From Thysanoteuthis rhombus (taxonomy: Eukaryota > Mollusca > Cephalopoda > Oegopsida > Thysanoteuthidae), in contig OY735237.1 in NCBI GenBank assembly GCA_963457665.1, positions 5,676,332 to 5,740,331 of the forward strand: 64,000 bases of DNA. Reading direction: 5' to 3'. Both the position numbers and the translations under genes were made by a program. Under the pieces are notes generated by a model that saw nothing but the letters and a program-made list of their open reading frames with translations, had not been told where the DNA came from and ran no database searches. Of this stretch, positions 2,954-49,397 are shown one piece after another. Positions within the stretch are counted from its first letter, which is position 1, and each line of letters begins with the position of its first letter.

Positions 2954-3315
2954 TAATCATCAAACACACACACATATCATACAATACAAATCACAGATGC
3001 AATATGATACAATATCTGATATATGATGGGTTCATCTCAAAGTGCTCAATACATTCAACTTTAAACATTAAGTTGGTTTAAAGTAGAGCTTAAAATAAAA
3101 TGGAATGAGGATTCACTACACAAACATGTTTATGTTTATGTCGTGTTTTATACATATATATATACACACACACACACAAACTAAGCTTAGCATAATCAGC
3201 CTCGAAACCACACAAGAGAGGGGGGGGGGAGTTCGCATTGCACAATGACCTGCTTAGTGGCACCTGCATAAAATATGTATCAAATATACAATTTATATAC
3301 ATATATATATATATA

Positions 3316-3475
3316 ATCATGTCATTCACAGACAGCTGTTTCGTTGTATTACAACTCTTCAATGTGGCTATAGGCTCGATATCCCTTCCAGTACTGCAAG
3401 GACCCAGAGGCAGATGCTCTACCCCCGCCCTACACAGAATAGACAGTCAGTATGACTGAATTAAGCGATATATTT

Positions 3476-3478
<3 letters not shown>
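3316..3478 (-). mobile_element. Hammerhead-bearing retroelement copy A (5'-truncated)
   Basis: This copy of about 160 bp has the same 3' end as copies B-D. Its 5' end stops just after the GCGATATATTTACTT block, where (TA)n begins at 3481. (TA)n also lies on the other side (3299-3315). Its shorter body with a constant 3' end fits 5' truncation. Confidence 0.6.
3326..3367 (-). ncRNA. Degenerate hammerhead ribozyme motif (copy A)
   Basis: Stem II (GUUGU-AAU-ACAAC), GAAA, stem III and the GUC cleavage triplet are all preserved. The first core residue is changed, so the core reads UUGAAGA instead of CUGAAGA, and the outer stem I pair is lost (UGUGA). Loss of the core C should abolish or strongly reduce cleavage. 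It sits in DDX20 intron 4 on the sense strand, between (TA)n tracts. Confidence 0.7.
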
Positions 3479-3480
<2 letters not shown>

Positions 3481-5794: not shown

Positions 5795-6155
5795 CTTCAG
5801 GCTCCTTGTGGAGCATGGGGCCACAACCATTCATCTGTAGTTTCAGTAGCTAGTAGGTTCTTATGGAGTGGAGTTATCAGCCCTATGCCCAACCTACCTC
5901 TTTTACCTGGGCTTGAGACCAGCTATGACAACTGCCAAGCCTAAGTTTTTTTTTTCTTTAAGAGTAACCTTTTCCTAGATGGACTGCCTTAAAGGGCTCC
6001 AACTGCCCTGCAATTTACCCATAGCTGAGAGGGAGGGTGTATTCATGCCTTTCCCAAGTGCATCTGTGTGAAAGGAACACAAACAGCCTCAGCCAAAAGT
6101 TTTAACTTAATCCGACGATTTCTGTAACGGTTACGCCACTACACATTGACCTAAA
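5795..6155 (-). repeat. SINE-like dispersed repeat (family with GCTGAG/GGCAT blocks)
   Basis: On the minus strand it begins GTAGTGGCGTAACCGTTAC (A-box-like). It then runs through TTTCACACAGATGCACTTG, GGCATGAATACACC, CAGCTATGGGTAAATTGCAG and CAGTCCATCTAGG. The same block order occurs at 21448-21860 (opposite orientation), 27180-27545 and, shorter, 59580-59735. It is a multi-copy, probably tRNA-headed SINE. Confidence 0.6.
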
Positions 6156-6889: not shown

Positions 6890-7394
6890 CACAGGACTGG
6901 AAAAAAAAAGTAGCATTCCAAGGGAAATTATGAATCACCACCATGCTTCTATGCTATTTTTTACCATGTAAATTAAGCAGTGGTAAAATCAAGTCACTTT
7001 GATGAAAATACTACCAGTATGGTTTGAATCTTATTTATCATTCTAAAAATTAGGGGGTGAATACAAAGTAAGTGACCAATTTGGCATAAACTCTAATTGT
7101 AAATTGAACCCCCTAATATAAATCTATTTAAGAGTGGAATTCTCAAAAAAGACAGGAAAAAAAAAAAAAAAACATTTCCCCTACTAATAACCGTTCATAG
7201 TAGAAATTTTGCACACTCACCTCTCAGGAGTGTGTGTGCAAAATTTCTACCATGAACGGTTAGGATCGAGTACAATCTGGAAAGATAGATACATATAAAT
7301 GTTAGAACACATGAATAACCTAAACCCAGCAACAGTGATTAAACCGGTCTATTGTGGGTAACAGTGATTAAAAAAAAAAAAAAAAAAAAAAAAA
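6890..7394 (+). repeat. Dispersed repeat copy ending in poly-A
   Basis: It shares, in the same order, the blocks CCAAGGGAAA..TATGAATCA, GACCAATTT.GCATAAA and CAACAGTGATT..ACC.GTCT.TTGTGGGTA with 46955-47690. It ends in a run of about 25 A at 7370-7394. The 47 kb relative is split by hammerhead element D. The poly-A end suggests retrotransposition. No coding sequence is seen. Confidence 0.6.
7189..7261. repeat. Near-perfect 32-bp-arm hairpin
   Basis: The arms begin and end AACCGTTCAT...ATGAACGGTT and pair over 32 positions with two mismatches, around a loop of about 9 bases (CTCTCAGGA). It lies in DDX20 intron 3, within a dispersed repeat that continues to the poly-A at 7370. A related single-arm sequence (GTGTGCAAAATT) occurs near 47211, so the fold-back may be a local inverted duplication within a repeat copy. 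Confidence 0.8.
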
Positions 7395-15863: not shown

Positions 15864-16760
15864 TATGAGATGAATGGTTCACAAAGGCGTAAGGGAACTA
15901 TCACTCACTGTAATTCATCCAAGCCCCATGACTGTCCATTTAGAGCATGTGTAGGGGTAGACAGCAAAGGGATTTGGGTTGGCCCGAAGGCAAATGTTGG
16001 CATTCTAAGCTTACATTTTGTTTTGAACATTCTATCTTTTCAACAGATTCAAAAGATGCCTAGATTGAATTAAATTGTGACAAAATTGACTTCTTTGATT
16101 ACTAATTGGCTTTTAAACACAAATGATGCTTTTGCATGTTTTATGCTGAATCGGTGGAATTTCAACTTCGGTTACACAAAAAAAAATAAATGCTTAGTTT
16201 TAATTTGATCAAAATAAGGATATAAAACAGCAACTATTTTTTTAAAGTTTATATGATTAAATGCAATCAAATTTTTCTTTAACAGAAAAATTAGTAAATT
16301 TTTTTTCAAATAAAATTTCACCAATTTGATGTTACGCACGTAACATTCATTGATTTGAAGCAAAATAAAACTATCTAAACAGACAACTCTCATATTTCCG
16401 AATTTCTATGGCATTAACCAGGCCCACCCTCCATCCATTAAGATGTGACCTGGCCCACAGAGGAAAAAAGATTGCTGACCACGACTTTGGTAGACAGTAC
16501 CCTAGTTATAATACCAGCTCTTTTCCAAACTAAAAGTCTGTCTTACATATTAGTATATGCAGTAGTTAGTATGAAAAACTTTATTGGACAATGAATGATA
16601 AATCTGGCTCAAGGCTAGATTCTTAGTGAGGAATTAATTCATTGACTGGGAAGCCAATGCAATTACCAGAAGGGATTTGTTAGACTAGGCTAATTTTAGA
16701 ACAAGACCACATTCAGAAGGAACCAAGAGAAACACATCGATAAGTATATAATAATTGATA

Positions 16761-17076
16761 ATTGTGTCATCCACAGACAGCTGTTTCGTTGTATTACAAC
16801 TCTTCAGTATGGCTGTAGACAATCCAGTATCTCTTCCAGTACCATTAGGTAGGGGCGAAACCTTCGCTACAGACCCAGAGGCAGTTGTTCTACCCCTGTC
16901 CTACGCAGAACTGGACAGTCAGTAGGACCGAATTAAGCGATATATTTACTGATGCATAATTCCCCATTTATCAGAGTGCTCTATTCTGGAGCTGGAAGAG
17001 CATTGTAGAGCAGCTTATAGTAGACGAGTGCCCTACCCAAGAGTGTTCAAAGCTAAAGAAGGGAGTGTTAATTATA
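16761..17076 (-). mobile_element. Hammerhead-bearing retroelement, longest copy (B)
   Basis: This is the longest copy, about 315 bp. On the minus strand it runs from a (TA)-rich border near 17076, through a body shared with the other copies (blocks around CAGAGTGCTCTATTC, GCGATATATTTACT and the AGACCCAGAGGCAG region on the plus strand), to the ribozyme and the 3' end GGATGACACAAT at 16761. No open reading frame of note is present, so it is non-autonomous or a 5'-truncated remnant. It lies in DDX20 intron 1, sense strand. Confidence 0.65.
16771..16812 (-). ncRNA. Type I hammerhead ribozyme motif, intact core (copy B)
   Basis: Read on the minus strand: stem I 5' arm CCAUA, core CUGAAGA, stem II GUUGU / loop AAU / ACAAC, core GAAA, very short stem III (AC, loop AGCU, GU), cleavage triplet GUC, stem I 3' arm UGUGG. 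All invariant core positions are present. Stem II is five Watson-Crick pairs; stem I is five pairs with one U-G. Predicted self-cleavage falls between 16776 and 16775. Further out, GUC and GAC can pair across an internal loop, as in type I hammerheads. It lies in DDX20 intron 1 in the sense orientation. Minimal stem III is typical of hammerheads in Penelope-like elements and retrozymes. Activity is inferred, not shown. Confidence 0.8.
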
Positions 17077-18480
17077 TATATAAATATATATCCACAAACA
17101 AATATACAAAACTGGGCAAAGCTTTTTTATAATTTTTTTTTGCAATTACTCTGTTATTCTAACAATTATAAGTGAATTATTCAATGATGTTATACAATAT
17201 TGCATGCAGTGTTTGCGCACAGAATATGTTCTACTGTAGGATAGCTTTTCCCTTGTTTTTTATTCAGAAAACTGATCCACTTCGGCAAAGAAGTTGGTAA
17301 CAGTGTGCTGCTTCAATGTTGTTCCGTCAATCTGTGGTCATTGCACACAAATTTCCTCCCAACCAGTTTGGCCTTGATATGGACCCATATGTTCTCTATG
17401 ATGTTAAGATCTTTTATATGATGGGGAGTGTTTGGTTCATTTTTTTTGTCTAGGAATACATGCACGTGCACACACACAAGCATACAGTCAAATCAAAATC
17501 AATTCACTTAATGGACCCAATCATAGATTTTGATGGAATTTCAGGAAGCGGCACTTTTTCTAGAGCGAATATAACCCAAGAAATTTCAACTTGATTCAAC
17601 AGATAATTCAGAAGTTATAAGAAATCAAAATCTGCTAAAAATATCTTCTTTTCAAAGTATAGAAAGTAACAGTCAATTGAAGAAAGGATTAAAATTTTGC
17701 TGAATTATAGTTCAATCTATCCTCTTCCATTCCAAAAAATTCAAAAACTCCTACTCATATCTAACTTGGCAGAACTGCTACAAAAAGTGCTACATTTCTG
17801 AGAATTCCAACCAAGCACCAAAGTTTCAATGAATTGAAGCACTGAAAGTGACAGAATCTATGTCAAAAGGCATCAAATCAAATGGATAACATTGTAGTAT
17901 GGACTACTGCAGGTCACTTATAGGAATCTCAACAAAATTGTCCCTTTGACTTGATGCCTTTTGACCTGGATTCTGTTACTTTCCAGGCTTAAAGAAAAAA
18001 TAAAATAAAATTTTGGGTATTTATTGTAATGATCCTGTTTTGCTAAACAGGAAAGTATTTAATGCTTTTAAAATCTGTGTTTCAATGTTTTATACAAGGC
18101 AATACATCAAATGAATATAATCCAATGGAAGTTTCATTTTACTGCCCTTAGTTTAGTTTCTATGACTGGCCAAAAATTTAGAATCCCCCCATCAAAAGCC
18201 ATTTTACCTCATTTTGAAGGACTTATAACTTCAAGGTTACCAAATTTCAGCTTGACATCTTCCTAAATAGCATATTTATGAAGTGCCAAATATGGCATAA
18301 TCATGATTAGAGCTTGCAGCAGAAAATTTGAGCAAATTTTAATTTGTTCAATCAAACTGAAATTTTCAGGGTGAATTTTTTCTAGAAAATGTATTAGTAA
18401 CTAAAATTACATAAAAATCGAAGATAGCACACATGAGGACTTGAGAAATATAAGGTGATCTGATATGGAATGACCCACAC

Positions 18481-42639: not shown

Positions 42640-42681
<42 letters not shown>
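42640..42681. repeat. (TA)n microsatellite at the 3' border of hammerhead element C
   Basis: Pure TA run ending one base before the element's 3' end. A second run (42906-42941) borders its 5' side. Confidence 0.95.
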
Positions 42682-42682
<1 letters not shown>

Positions 42683-42687
<5 letters not shown>

Positions 42688-42908
42688 GTCATCCACAGAC
42701 AGCTGTTTCAATGTATTACATCTCTTCAGTGTGGCTATAGACTTTCCATTATCCCATCCAGTACTGCGAGGCAGAATTGTAACCTTCACTTCAGACCTGC
42801 ACTATGGAACTGGACAGGCAGTAAGGCTGAATTTAAGCATTATATTTAAATTACACAGAAATCCCTCATCCACCAGAGTGCTCAATTCCTACAGAAGAGC
42901 ATTGCATA
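42683..42908 (-). mobile_element. Hammerhead-bearing retroelement copy C
   Basis: This copy of about 225 bp is flanked on both sides by pure (TA)n (42640-42681 and 42906-42927). It shares the CCAGAGTGCTCAATTC and AAGAGCATTGCA blocks with copy D and ends 5' at the second (TA)n tract. It carries the best-preserved ribozyme stem I. Confidence 0.62.
42693..42734 (-). ncRNA. Type I hammerhead ribozyme motif, intact core with covarying stem II (copy C)
   Basis: It has the same 42-nt architecture as the 16.8 kb copy. Stem I is CCACA/UGUGG with all five pairs Watson-Crick, the cores are CUGAAGA and GAAA, stem III is AC-AGCU-GU and the cleavage triplet is GUC (cut between 42698 and 42697). Stem II reads GAUGU / AAU / ACAUU. 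Relative to GUUGU/ACAAC the second pair has switched from U-A to A-U on both strands, and the first pair is now G-U. Preserved pairing despite sequence change supports a real RNA structure. It lies inside the presumed twinfilin intron, antisense to that gene. Confidence 0.8.

Positions 42909-47264: not shown

Positions 47265-47329
<65 letters not shown>
47264..47329. repeat. (TA)n microsatellite at the 3' border of hammerhead element D
   Basis: About 65 bp of TA with a single CA interruption, separating the host repeat from element D. Confidence 0.95.
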
Positions 47330-47334
<5 letters not shown>

Positions 47335-47587
47335 GTCATCCACAATTGTTGTATTACAACTCTTCGATGTGGCTATAGACAATCTGTTATTCCATCCAGT
47401 ACTATGAGTCAGGATCAAAACCTTTCCTTCCACTGAGCCACGGAACTGGATGATCAGTGAGGCAGAATTCAAGCGATATATTCTATTTTTTGCTTAAATC
47501 CTCCATCCACCAGAGTGCTCTATTCCTATGGAAGAGCATTGCATAAGGCTTACAATGAACGAGTTTCCTCACTTAAAGAGTATTCAA
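47330..47587 (-). mobile_element. Hammerhead-bearing retroelement copy D, nested in another repeat
   Basis: This copy of about 255 bp has its 3' end at a (TA)n tract (47264-47329). It interrupts a longer dispersed repeat whose uninterrupted relative lies at about 6890-7375. The ribozyme is deleted (remnant at 47340-47372). Confidence 0.6.
47340..47372 (-). ncRNA. Broken hammerhead ribozyme remnant (copy D)
   Basis: Stem II GUUGU-AAU-ACAAC and stem I arm CCACA remain. A 9-base deletion removes stem III, the GUC triplet and part of the GAAA core, and the first core now reads UCGAAGA. It cannot be an active hammerhead. Together with copies A-C it shows that the family decays by ordinary mutation. 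Confidence 0.7.
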
Positions 47588-47589
47588 CC

Positions 47590-47690
47590 CTGAATACAGA
47601 TGTCAGAACTTAGCGACTTGAACCTGGCAACAGCCACAGTGATTGAACCTGTCTGTTGTGGGTAGCGGTGATTAAAAATTCCCATTATTG
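47590..47690 (+). repeat. Dispersed repeat, second part after element D
   Basis: Contains CAACAGCCACAGTGATTGAA and GTCTGTTGTGGGTAGCGGTG, matching 7327-7370. This continuation on the far side of element D supports a nested insertion. Confidence 0.55.
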
Positions 47691-48956: not shown

Positions 48957-49397
48957 ATGAAAGTTTTATGGAAATTATTGCACTTTATTACCCGTAAATT
49001 GAGAATCATGCAACGTGCACATCAAAGAATAATGCTGGGCCTCACATGGAGAGACCACAAAACAGCACGGTACATCCGAGAAAAGACAAGAGTCAGGGAC
49101 ATCATAGAATCCATTAAAAATCTCAAATGGCGGTGGGCTGGTCATGTTGTAAGAATGGCAGACAACCAATGGACATCACGACTCACGACATGGATCCCCC
49201 GAGATCACATGCGCAACCGAGGCCGGCAGAATATTAGATGGAGAGACGAACTAGACAAGTTCAGGAAGTACTGGCTCCGCAACGCCCATGATAAAGAAGT
49301 ATGGCATATCCTGGGGAAGGTCTATCCAACGACGGACGTTAAAAGACTGATGATGATGATACTAGCTGTTCTTATAACTCGTGATATTGGTAGGTAG
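48957..49397 (+). mobile_element. LINE reverse-transcriptase C-terminal fragment (family 1), best copy
   Basis: This is the longest open frame of any mobile element here (146 codons). It reads RAHQRIMLGLTWRDHKTAR, then RVRDIIESIKNLKWRWAGHV, VRMADNQWTSRLTTWIPRDH, GRQNIRWRDELDKFRKYWL and KVYPTTDVKRLMMMI, and runs into a TGATGATGATG tail. This is the familiar C-terminal tail of animal LINE endonuclease/reverse-transcriptase proteins. The element is 5'-truncated: polymerase and endonuclease domains are missing. The first dozen codons before RAHQ may be flanking sequence. The clade cannot be fixed from this part. Confidence 0.85.

Follow-up and report, generated by a model that had tools for sequence, protein, structure and literature searches.

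Does the minus strand of this locus encode a complete hammerhead ribozyme, and if so, what kind of repeat would carry it? The question is raised by positions 16771-16812 of the window, the whole stretch of 64,000 nucleotides that was analysed here. Read directly from 16812 to 16771, the minus strand gives CCATA CTGAAGA GTTGT AAT ACAAC GAAA CAGCTGTC TGTGG, in which the invariant core of a type I hammerhead is complete (CUGANGA, here CUGAAGA; GAAA; the A15.1-U16.1 pair; and the GUC triplet). Three helices surround this core, with stem I as the open end: stem I joins CCAUA to UGUGG with one G-U, stem II joins GUUGU to ACAAC over 5 bp under the loop AAU, and stem III consists of one A-U and one C-G pair only, closed by the loop AGCU. 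The initial annotation had described a complete type I hammerhead with a cut between 16776 and 16775 on the minus strand; the core and stems I, II and III were recovered by direct reading, by a descriptor scan and by the Rfam model RF00163, and the predicted cleavage site agrees with the hammerhead frame, in which it falls 3' of GUC at the C17 position. It had also called the ribozyme minimal, a label that is right in that the core is complete but incomplete in that stem I likely extends past an internal loop through UGUC/GACA, where 16821-16818 pairs with 16768-16765 outside the span originally given. With this outer stem I the hammerhead occupies 16765-16821 on the minus strand, and 86.7% of its cells were paired over 75 copies. 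Stem III and its loop together form the palindrome ACAGCUGU (16777-16784, minus strand), which, judged from its sequence, could give an 8-bp stem III between two copies and would suit a dimer modelled on the newt-type hammerhead.

A descriptor scan of both window strands detected intact hammerheads only at 16771-16812 and 42693-42734. When it was run on 100 Mb of simulated first-order Markov sequence and on 20 random stretches of 10 kb from this genome, it returned no hit in either set. The chance rate of the descriptor was accordingly below 3e-8 per base, and the 95% upper bound on the chance expectation was 0.0038 for the window and 2e-5 for the 333-nt family, both strands being counted in each case. 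A chance match, already judged very unlikely from the core and stems, was thus ruled out as the origin of the motif. In the whole-window Rfam search only Hammerhead_3 (RF00008) was listed at the motif (21.2 bits, gathering 48.5, E 7.3), and Hammerhead_1 (RF00163), run against 201 bases, aligned 16769-16814 over its full model length, 1-45, at 23.4 bits (E 0.0011), below its gathering score of 34. Among related loci, Hammerhead_3 reached 21.6-22.6 bits in 4 of 20, the best Hammerhead_1 copies (L071 and L084) scored 25.1 bits, and the two hammerheads of L089 scored 17.8 bits; no Rfam hammerhead match attained its gathering score in the window or in the related loci scanned. Of the two outcomes that were jointly to refute the initial annotation, one has therefore occurred, namely a missed gathering score, although RF00163 aligned over its full length. 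The gathering score is a curated cut-off and carries no structural requirement; since it was missed, we classify the motif as structurally hammerhead-like but not proven by its score.

The hammerhead lies near the 3' end of a full repeat unit of about 330 bp, which nhmmer with a unit profile placed at 16747-17075 on the minus strand (unit 2-331). The unit consensus, 333 columns with 44.7% GC in its first version, falls within the size and composition of retrozymes (about 170-400 bp, GC below 50%), and no ORF of at least 120 aa overlaps 16747-17075, in keeping with the non-coding character of retrozymes. The family consensus keeps an intact hammerhead core and a perfect 5-bp stem I. Three further copies were located in the window, all on the minus strand: the second (42670-42906, unit 71-330; descriptor scan and unit profile) contains the intact hammerhead at 42693-42734, the third (3303-3479, unit 127-330; unit profile) has a decayed hammerhead at 3312-3384 in which the first core C is changed to T, and the fourth (47317-47603, unit 11-330; unit profile) has a hammerhead at 47326-47392 without the stem III segment. 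Besides a G-U, stem II of the 42693-42734 hammerhead has one U-A pair replaced by A-U; being a single case, this swap was rejected as proof of covariation.

Beyond the window, a BLAST search of the 201 bases against their own genome (2.73 Gb in 514 contigs) gave 2164 first-look candidates, of which 41 matches were scored, with identities of 86-100%, the window itself included. The 42-nt consensus motif occurred 20,376 times genome-wide at no more than 3 mismatches and the exact 32-nt core 2,495 times, with reversed-pattern controls of 0 in both counts, so that the repeat is dispersed, as had been claimed from the window. An independent estimate came from a random sample of 20 stretches of 10 kb from the same genome, in which 3 model hits in 200 kb correspond to about 41,000 motifs (95% range 8,400-120,000); the four window hammerheads were left out of this figure because the window had been chosen for the finding.

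We then examined the architecture of the copies in loci with flanking sequence, comprising 20 BLAST matches, 18 more, 20 obtained by a whole-unit query, and one more, and in the 20 random 10-kb stretches; the unit profile delimited 68 elements (67 without L089). Since the loci were chosen for their resemblance to parts of the unit, the sample is partly a selected one and the spread of element starts is not unbiased. The elements took the form of 5'-truncated monomers, whole monomers, and one unit with part of a second, head to tail, and most loci fell short of two full units. Counting junctions within 15 nt, the 68 elements showed 21 that were head-to-tail and a single opposite-strand pair, a head-to-tail arrangement characteristic of retrozymes. 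In that one pair (L064, 4-531), the two elements meet tail to tail with 7 nt between them, in TA-rich sequence. The 3' ends were uniform, falling at unit 320-331 in 64 of the 68 elements and, in 57 of these, at 328-331, so that the fixed 3' end lies some 29 nt beyond the predicted hammerhead cut at unit 302/303. The 5' ends differed by class: 22 of 48 single-piece elements started at unit 2-11, with most others truncated further in, and 18 of 20 multi-piece elements started at 136-285 of the upstream unit, the exceptions being L053, whose locus was cut short, and L089. These 18 elements begin 46-195 nt into the upstream unit and have an exact junction. No profile-detected element among the 68 started at the cut (unit 298-308). 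At L025, a 28-nt upstream remnant starts at unit 303, exactly at the cut; it lies below the profile threshold and is anecdotal. An apparent recurrent 5' end at unit ~281 was discarded as an artefact of the padding of matches by about 50 bases, the fetched loci extending further upstream.

The flanks of the elements were enriched in TA. Runs of at least 6 nt were present in 48 of 65 3' flanks (40 nt) and 38 of 66 5' flanks, compared to 287 of 4980 control 40-mers, and the presence of TA on one flank did not predict its presence on the other (Fisher p = 0.42). One locus stood apart from the other tandem loci: L089 (783-1519) holds two complete units and an upstream piece starting at 246, 97-99% alike, with a similarity of 97.2% between the complete units and of 98.8% between the upstream piece and its neighbour, and it is probably a recent local duplication.

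Taken as one joint reading, the family is likely a non-autonomous, SINE-sized element of the metazoan non-LTR retrozyme kind, which would move by way of its ribozyme, an RNA circle and reverse transcription, in a mollusc host that is probably a cephalopod. The link to retrozymes suggested in the initial annotation is supported by the ~330-bp non-coding units, the head-to-tail junctions and the very high copy number. Under this reading, multimeric transcripts of source elements would cut themselves at the hammerhead, and dimers would do so more readily than monomers, given a stem III of two pairs with a loop that is part of the palindrome. The 330-nt pieces would be circularised by a host ligase. 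A reverse transcriptase encoded by some other element would then prime on the UA-rich segment of unit 320-331, starting from (TA)n target DNA that has been nicked. Copying one lap or slightly more round the circle would yield whole or overlapping units, the ends of which would thereby be permuted relative to the ribozyme cut; that circles are reverse-transcribed into cDNA exceeding unit length has been proposed before (PMC7761336). The offset of the 3' end from the cut, seen alongside the TA association, is consistent with priming on a circle or an uncut multimer, and a cut linear monomer would hardly produce it; this step is an inference. A more specific version is tentative: the circular RNA might be copied straight into (TA)n, with fixed UA-rich priming 29 nt past the seam, so that every insertion would be a circular permutation of the ribozyme-cut monomer and would record one lap or slightly more. 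If this version were true, the fixed but permuted end, along with the TA target, would offer a first clue to the enzyme by which animal retrozymes are mobilised; these elements are said to have no motif pointing to a helper enzyme (PMC7761336). The ribozyme motif by itself is unsurprising; what the ~20,000 motif copies, the offset 3' end and the TA association add is that the circular-template model becomes testable, and the adjacency to TA repeats may help show how retrozyme-like elements copy themselves.

The main rival to the circular-template reading is a plain SINE model, in which the family is a SINE-like retroposon whose linear transcripts run from unit ~1 to ~331, with the inherited hammerhead idle and the tandems arising from multi-unit read-through. 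We consider this model unlikely, though several observations speak for it. Many elements run from unit 2-11 to 320-331, for which no circle is needed, and a template cleaved by its ribozyme would no longer carry the 3' end that lies beyond the cut. Against it stands the complete hammerhead of the family consensus, for which chance does not account, and the 18 exact mid-unit upstream junctions require multi-unit templates or a circle. The unit also lacks the expected relation to tRNA: no RF00005 match was found within the element in 20 loci at E values up to 3, and ARAGORN on the tandem consensus reported 0 genes by default and poor candidates only in a relaxed run, leaving a tRNA origin of the unit unsupported by either method. 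By eye, an A-box-like TAGGACAGGGG and a B-box-like GGTTTCGCCC can be read inside the unit (16853-16903, minus strand), and the SINE model has these words only. At L017, a tRNA match of 36 bits (gathering 29) was observed at 287-368 on the plus strand, outside the element and near one on the opposite strand.

Predicted folding also bears on the SINE model, in whose favour an alternative hairpin would silence the ribozyme by pairing the core CUG with CAG of the stem III loop; the predicted preference for this hairpin also counts against an active hammerhead in the retrozyme reading. In secondary-structure energies, the isolated region of the consensus gave -8.9 kcal/mol for the hammerhead with its outer stem versus -18.0 kcal/mol for the alternative hairpin, and that of the window copy gave -7.0 versus -19.1 kcal/mol; dimers with the 8-bp ACAGCUGU stem III gave -33.7 versus -44.4 kcal/mol for the consensus and -29.9 versus -46.6 kcal/mol for the window copy. 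For the bare consensus 42-mer the energy gap was 5.1 kcal/mol, close to the median of 5.3 for random-stem frames with an equally tiny stem III, so a gap of this size is typical of such frames, and the hammerhead was the minimum fold in 1 of 2000 tiny-stem-III frames with random stems. The whole unit consensus, folded as a circle, was stable at -116.1 kcal/mol (z = -5.5 against 100 shuffles), which speaks for the retrozyme reading.

The decay of the copies gives the SINE model two further points, namely a core that decays at the same rate as the loops and units that show no excess similarity within loci. In a set of 78 copies that favours good preservation, the hammerhead core was kept in 33 and the core with stems in 31; a further 12 differed from the core only by G12A at a CpG, the change that CpG decay is expected to produce, and the ACAGCUGU palindrome was intact in 50. 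When the motif was counted across the genome with either the core or the loop positions unconstrained, the substituted fraction per site was 0.0585 in the core versus 0.0547 in the loop, and 52 aligned copies showed no extra core conservation (p = 0.81), with core and loops substituted alike; no selection on the hammerhead core was thus seen among the genomic copies. Covariation above shuffles was found neither for the hammerhead nor for the rival hairpin in 75 copies (3 of the 78 being omitted as short), and covariation was accordingly set aside as proof of either fold. Neighbouring units in one locus were 0.834 alike and units from different loci 0.822 alike (20 pairs including L089, p = 0.32), a comparison whose reach is limited by the old divergence of the copies. 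Private changes common to neighbouring units, the mark sought for a circular template, were absent except at L089. This lack of excess similarity within loci leaves a second lap of copying round one circle without direct support. The picture is one of a burst from similar sources followed by neutral decay, which is silent on the use of the ribozyme by those sources, and the window copy is one of this family of decaying insertions, old and slowly decaying.

Two other explanations fare far worse. Local tandem duplication, by unequal crossing-over in a satellite-like manner, would make the multi-unit loci with the hammerhead as a passenger; L089, with units 97.2% alike and an upstream piece at 98.8%, looks just so, but in the other tandem pairs the similarity of neighbours does not exceed that of unrelated copies, independent loci share one junction position and most loci do not reach two full units, and we regard this account as highly improbable. 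It is equally improbable that the hammerhead is fortuitous and that the kept feature is the imperfect hairpin UUGUCUAUAG/CUGUGGAUGA, ACA/UGU, CUG/CAG, GUUGU/ACAAC, which is the minimum-energy fold of the isolated region (z = -2.84) and has 91.3% of cells paired over 75 copies, equal to the hammerhead, but which leaves aside the absence of descriptor hits in 100 Mb and the full-length RF00163 alignment, draws on a 42-mer energy gap typical of tiny-stem-III frames, and is likewise without covariation.

Several other features were noted. Within the window, 7188-7262 forms a long near-perfect hairpin with a mir-147 match below gathering (44.2 vs 57 bits), perhaps a small inverted-repeat element; 5889-5952 on the minus strand has a Twister-P1 match far below gathering (27.8 vs 67.2 bits, E 0.087); 17834-17895 and 17932-17993 are the 62-nt arms, 81% complementary, of an inverted repeat; and 48957-49397 on the plus strand is an open frame of 146 aa that resembles, by eye, the end of a LINE reverse-transcriptase protein. 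In the genome as a whole, the molluscan haemocyanin domain PF14830 gave 52 matches, compared with none in 14 control genomes, which marks the host as a mollusc; one domain scored best against PDB 6r83, a squid protein (2567 bits, the next scores being 2071 and 2048), and the host is probably a decapodiform cephalopod. Nine equal-scoring haemocyanin domain matches were spaced by about 2.18 kb at G000:C25:56607734-56625492, reflecting either near-identical units in tandem or an effect of the assembly.

The preferred reading, that of a retrozyme-like element, can be set beside four known systems. A literature search on cephalopod hammerhead ribozymes found no papers, and one on hammerhead ribozymes with octopus and SINEs gave a single paper whose two relevant mentions stand in its reference list. 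The amphibian satellite 2 hammerhead (RF00163) is alike in its repeats of ~330 bp and in the alignment of model positions 1-45, and each has a palindromic helix III, ACGCGCGU in the model and ACAGCUGU here; it differs in that our motif scores below gathering, has other stem II and loop sequences and, in the loci read, occurs in dispersed copies rather than satellite arrays. The hammerhead element Sm-alpha of Schistosoma is SINE-like and its hammerhead is active. Likened by description, Sm-alpha (named in PMC6155905) also places a hammerhead inside a SINE-sized dispersed repeat, whereas the present unit has A- and B-box-like words by eye only and no tRNA-model match. Penelope-like elements, reported in coleoid cephalopods (PMC8967140), share a type I hammerhead with a very short helix III and tandem partial copies, while the unit here is ~330 bp and non-coding.

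The closest parallel is with the metazoan retrozymes of Mytilus, Acropora and Ambystoma, for which we draw on the available text of PMC7229834. That text describes animal non-LTR retrozymes as units of 170-400 nt with type I hammerheads, tandem copies, low GC and circular RNAs, present in about 5000 copies in mussel and as 126,247 motifs in axolotl, and reports that a weak helix III with a palindromic tetraloop works as a dimer (PMC7229834). By the same account, each unit carries one type I hammerhead and units stand head to tail, as here, and the unit of ~330 bp compares with 350-390 bp in mussel and 330/350 bp in axolotl (PMC7229834). A GC content below 50%, no coding capacity seen and very many copies are likewise common to both, as are a short helix III with a palindromic loop, found in HHR_Amex1, and a strongly folded unit RNA (PMC7229834). 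In contrast to the long arrays described there, the present family consists mostly of one unit, or of one and a partial second, and its fixed 3' end beside (TA)n is a trait that the available portion does not note for metazoan retrozymes (PMC7229834). The likeness is drawn here from genomic sequence, whereas circular RNA was reported for those retrozymes (PMC7229834). As far as our searches show, both the unit sequence and the host are new among retrozymes, the host list of which gains what is probably a cephalopod.
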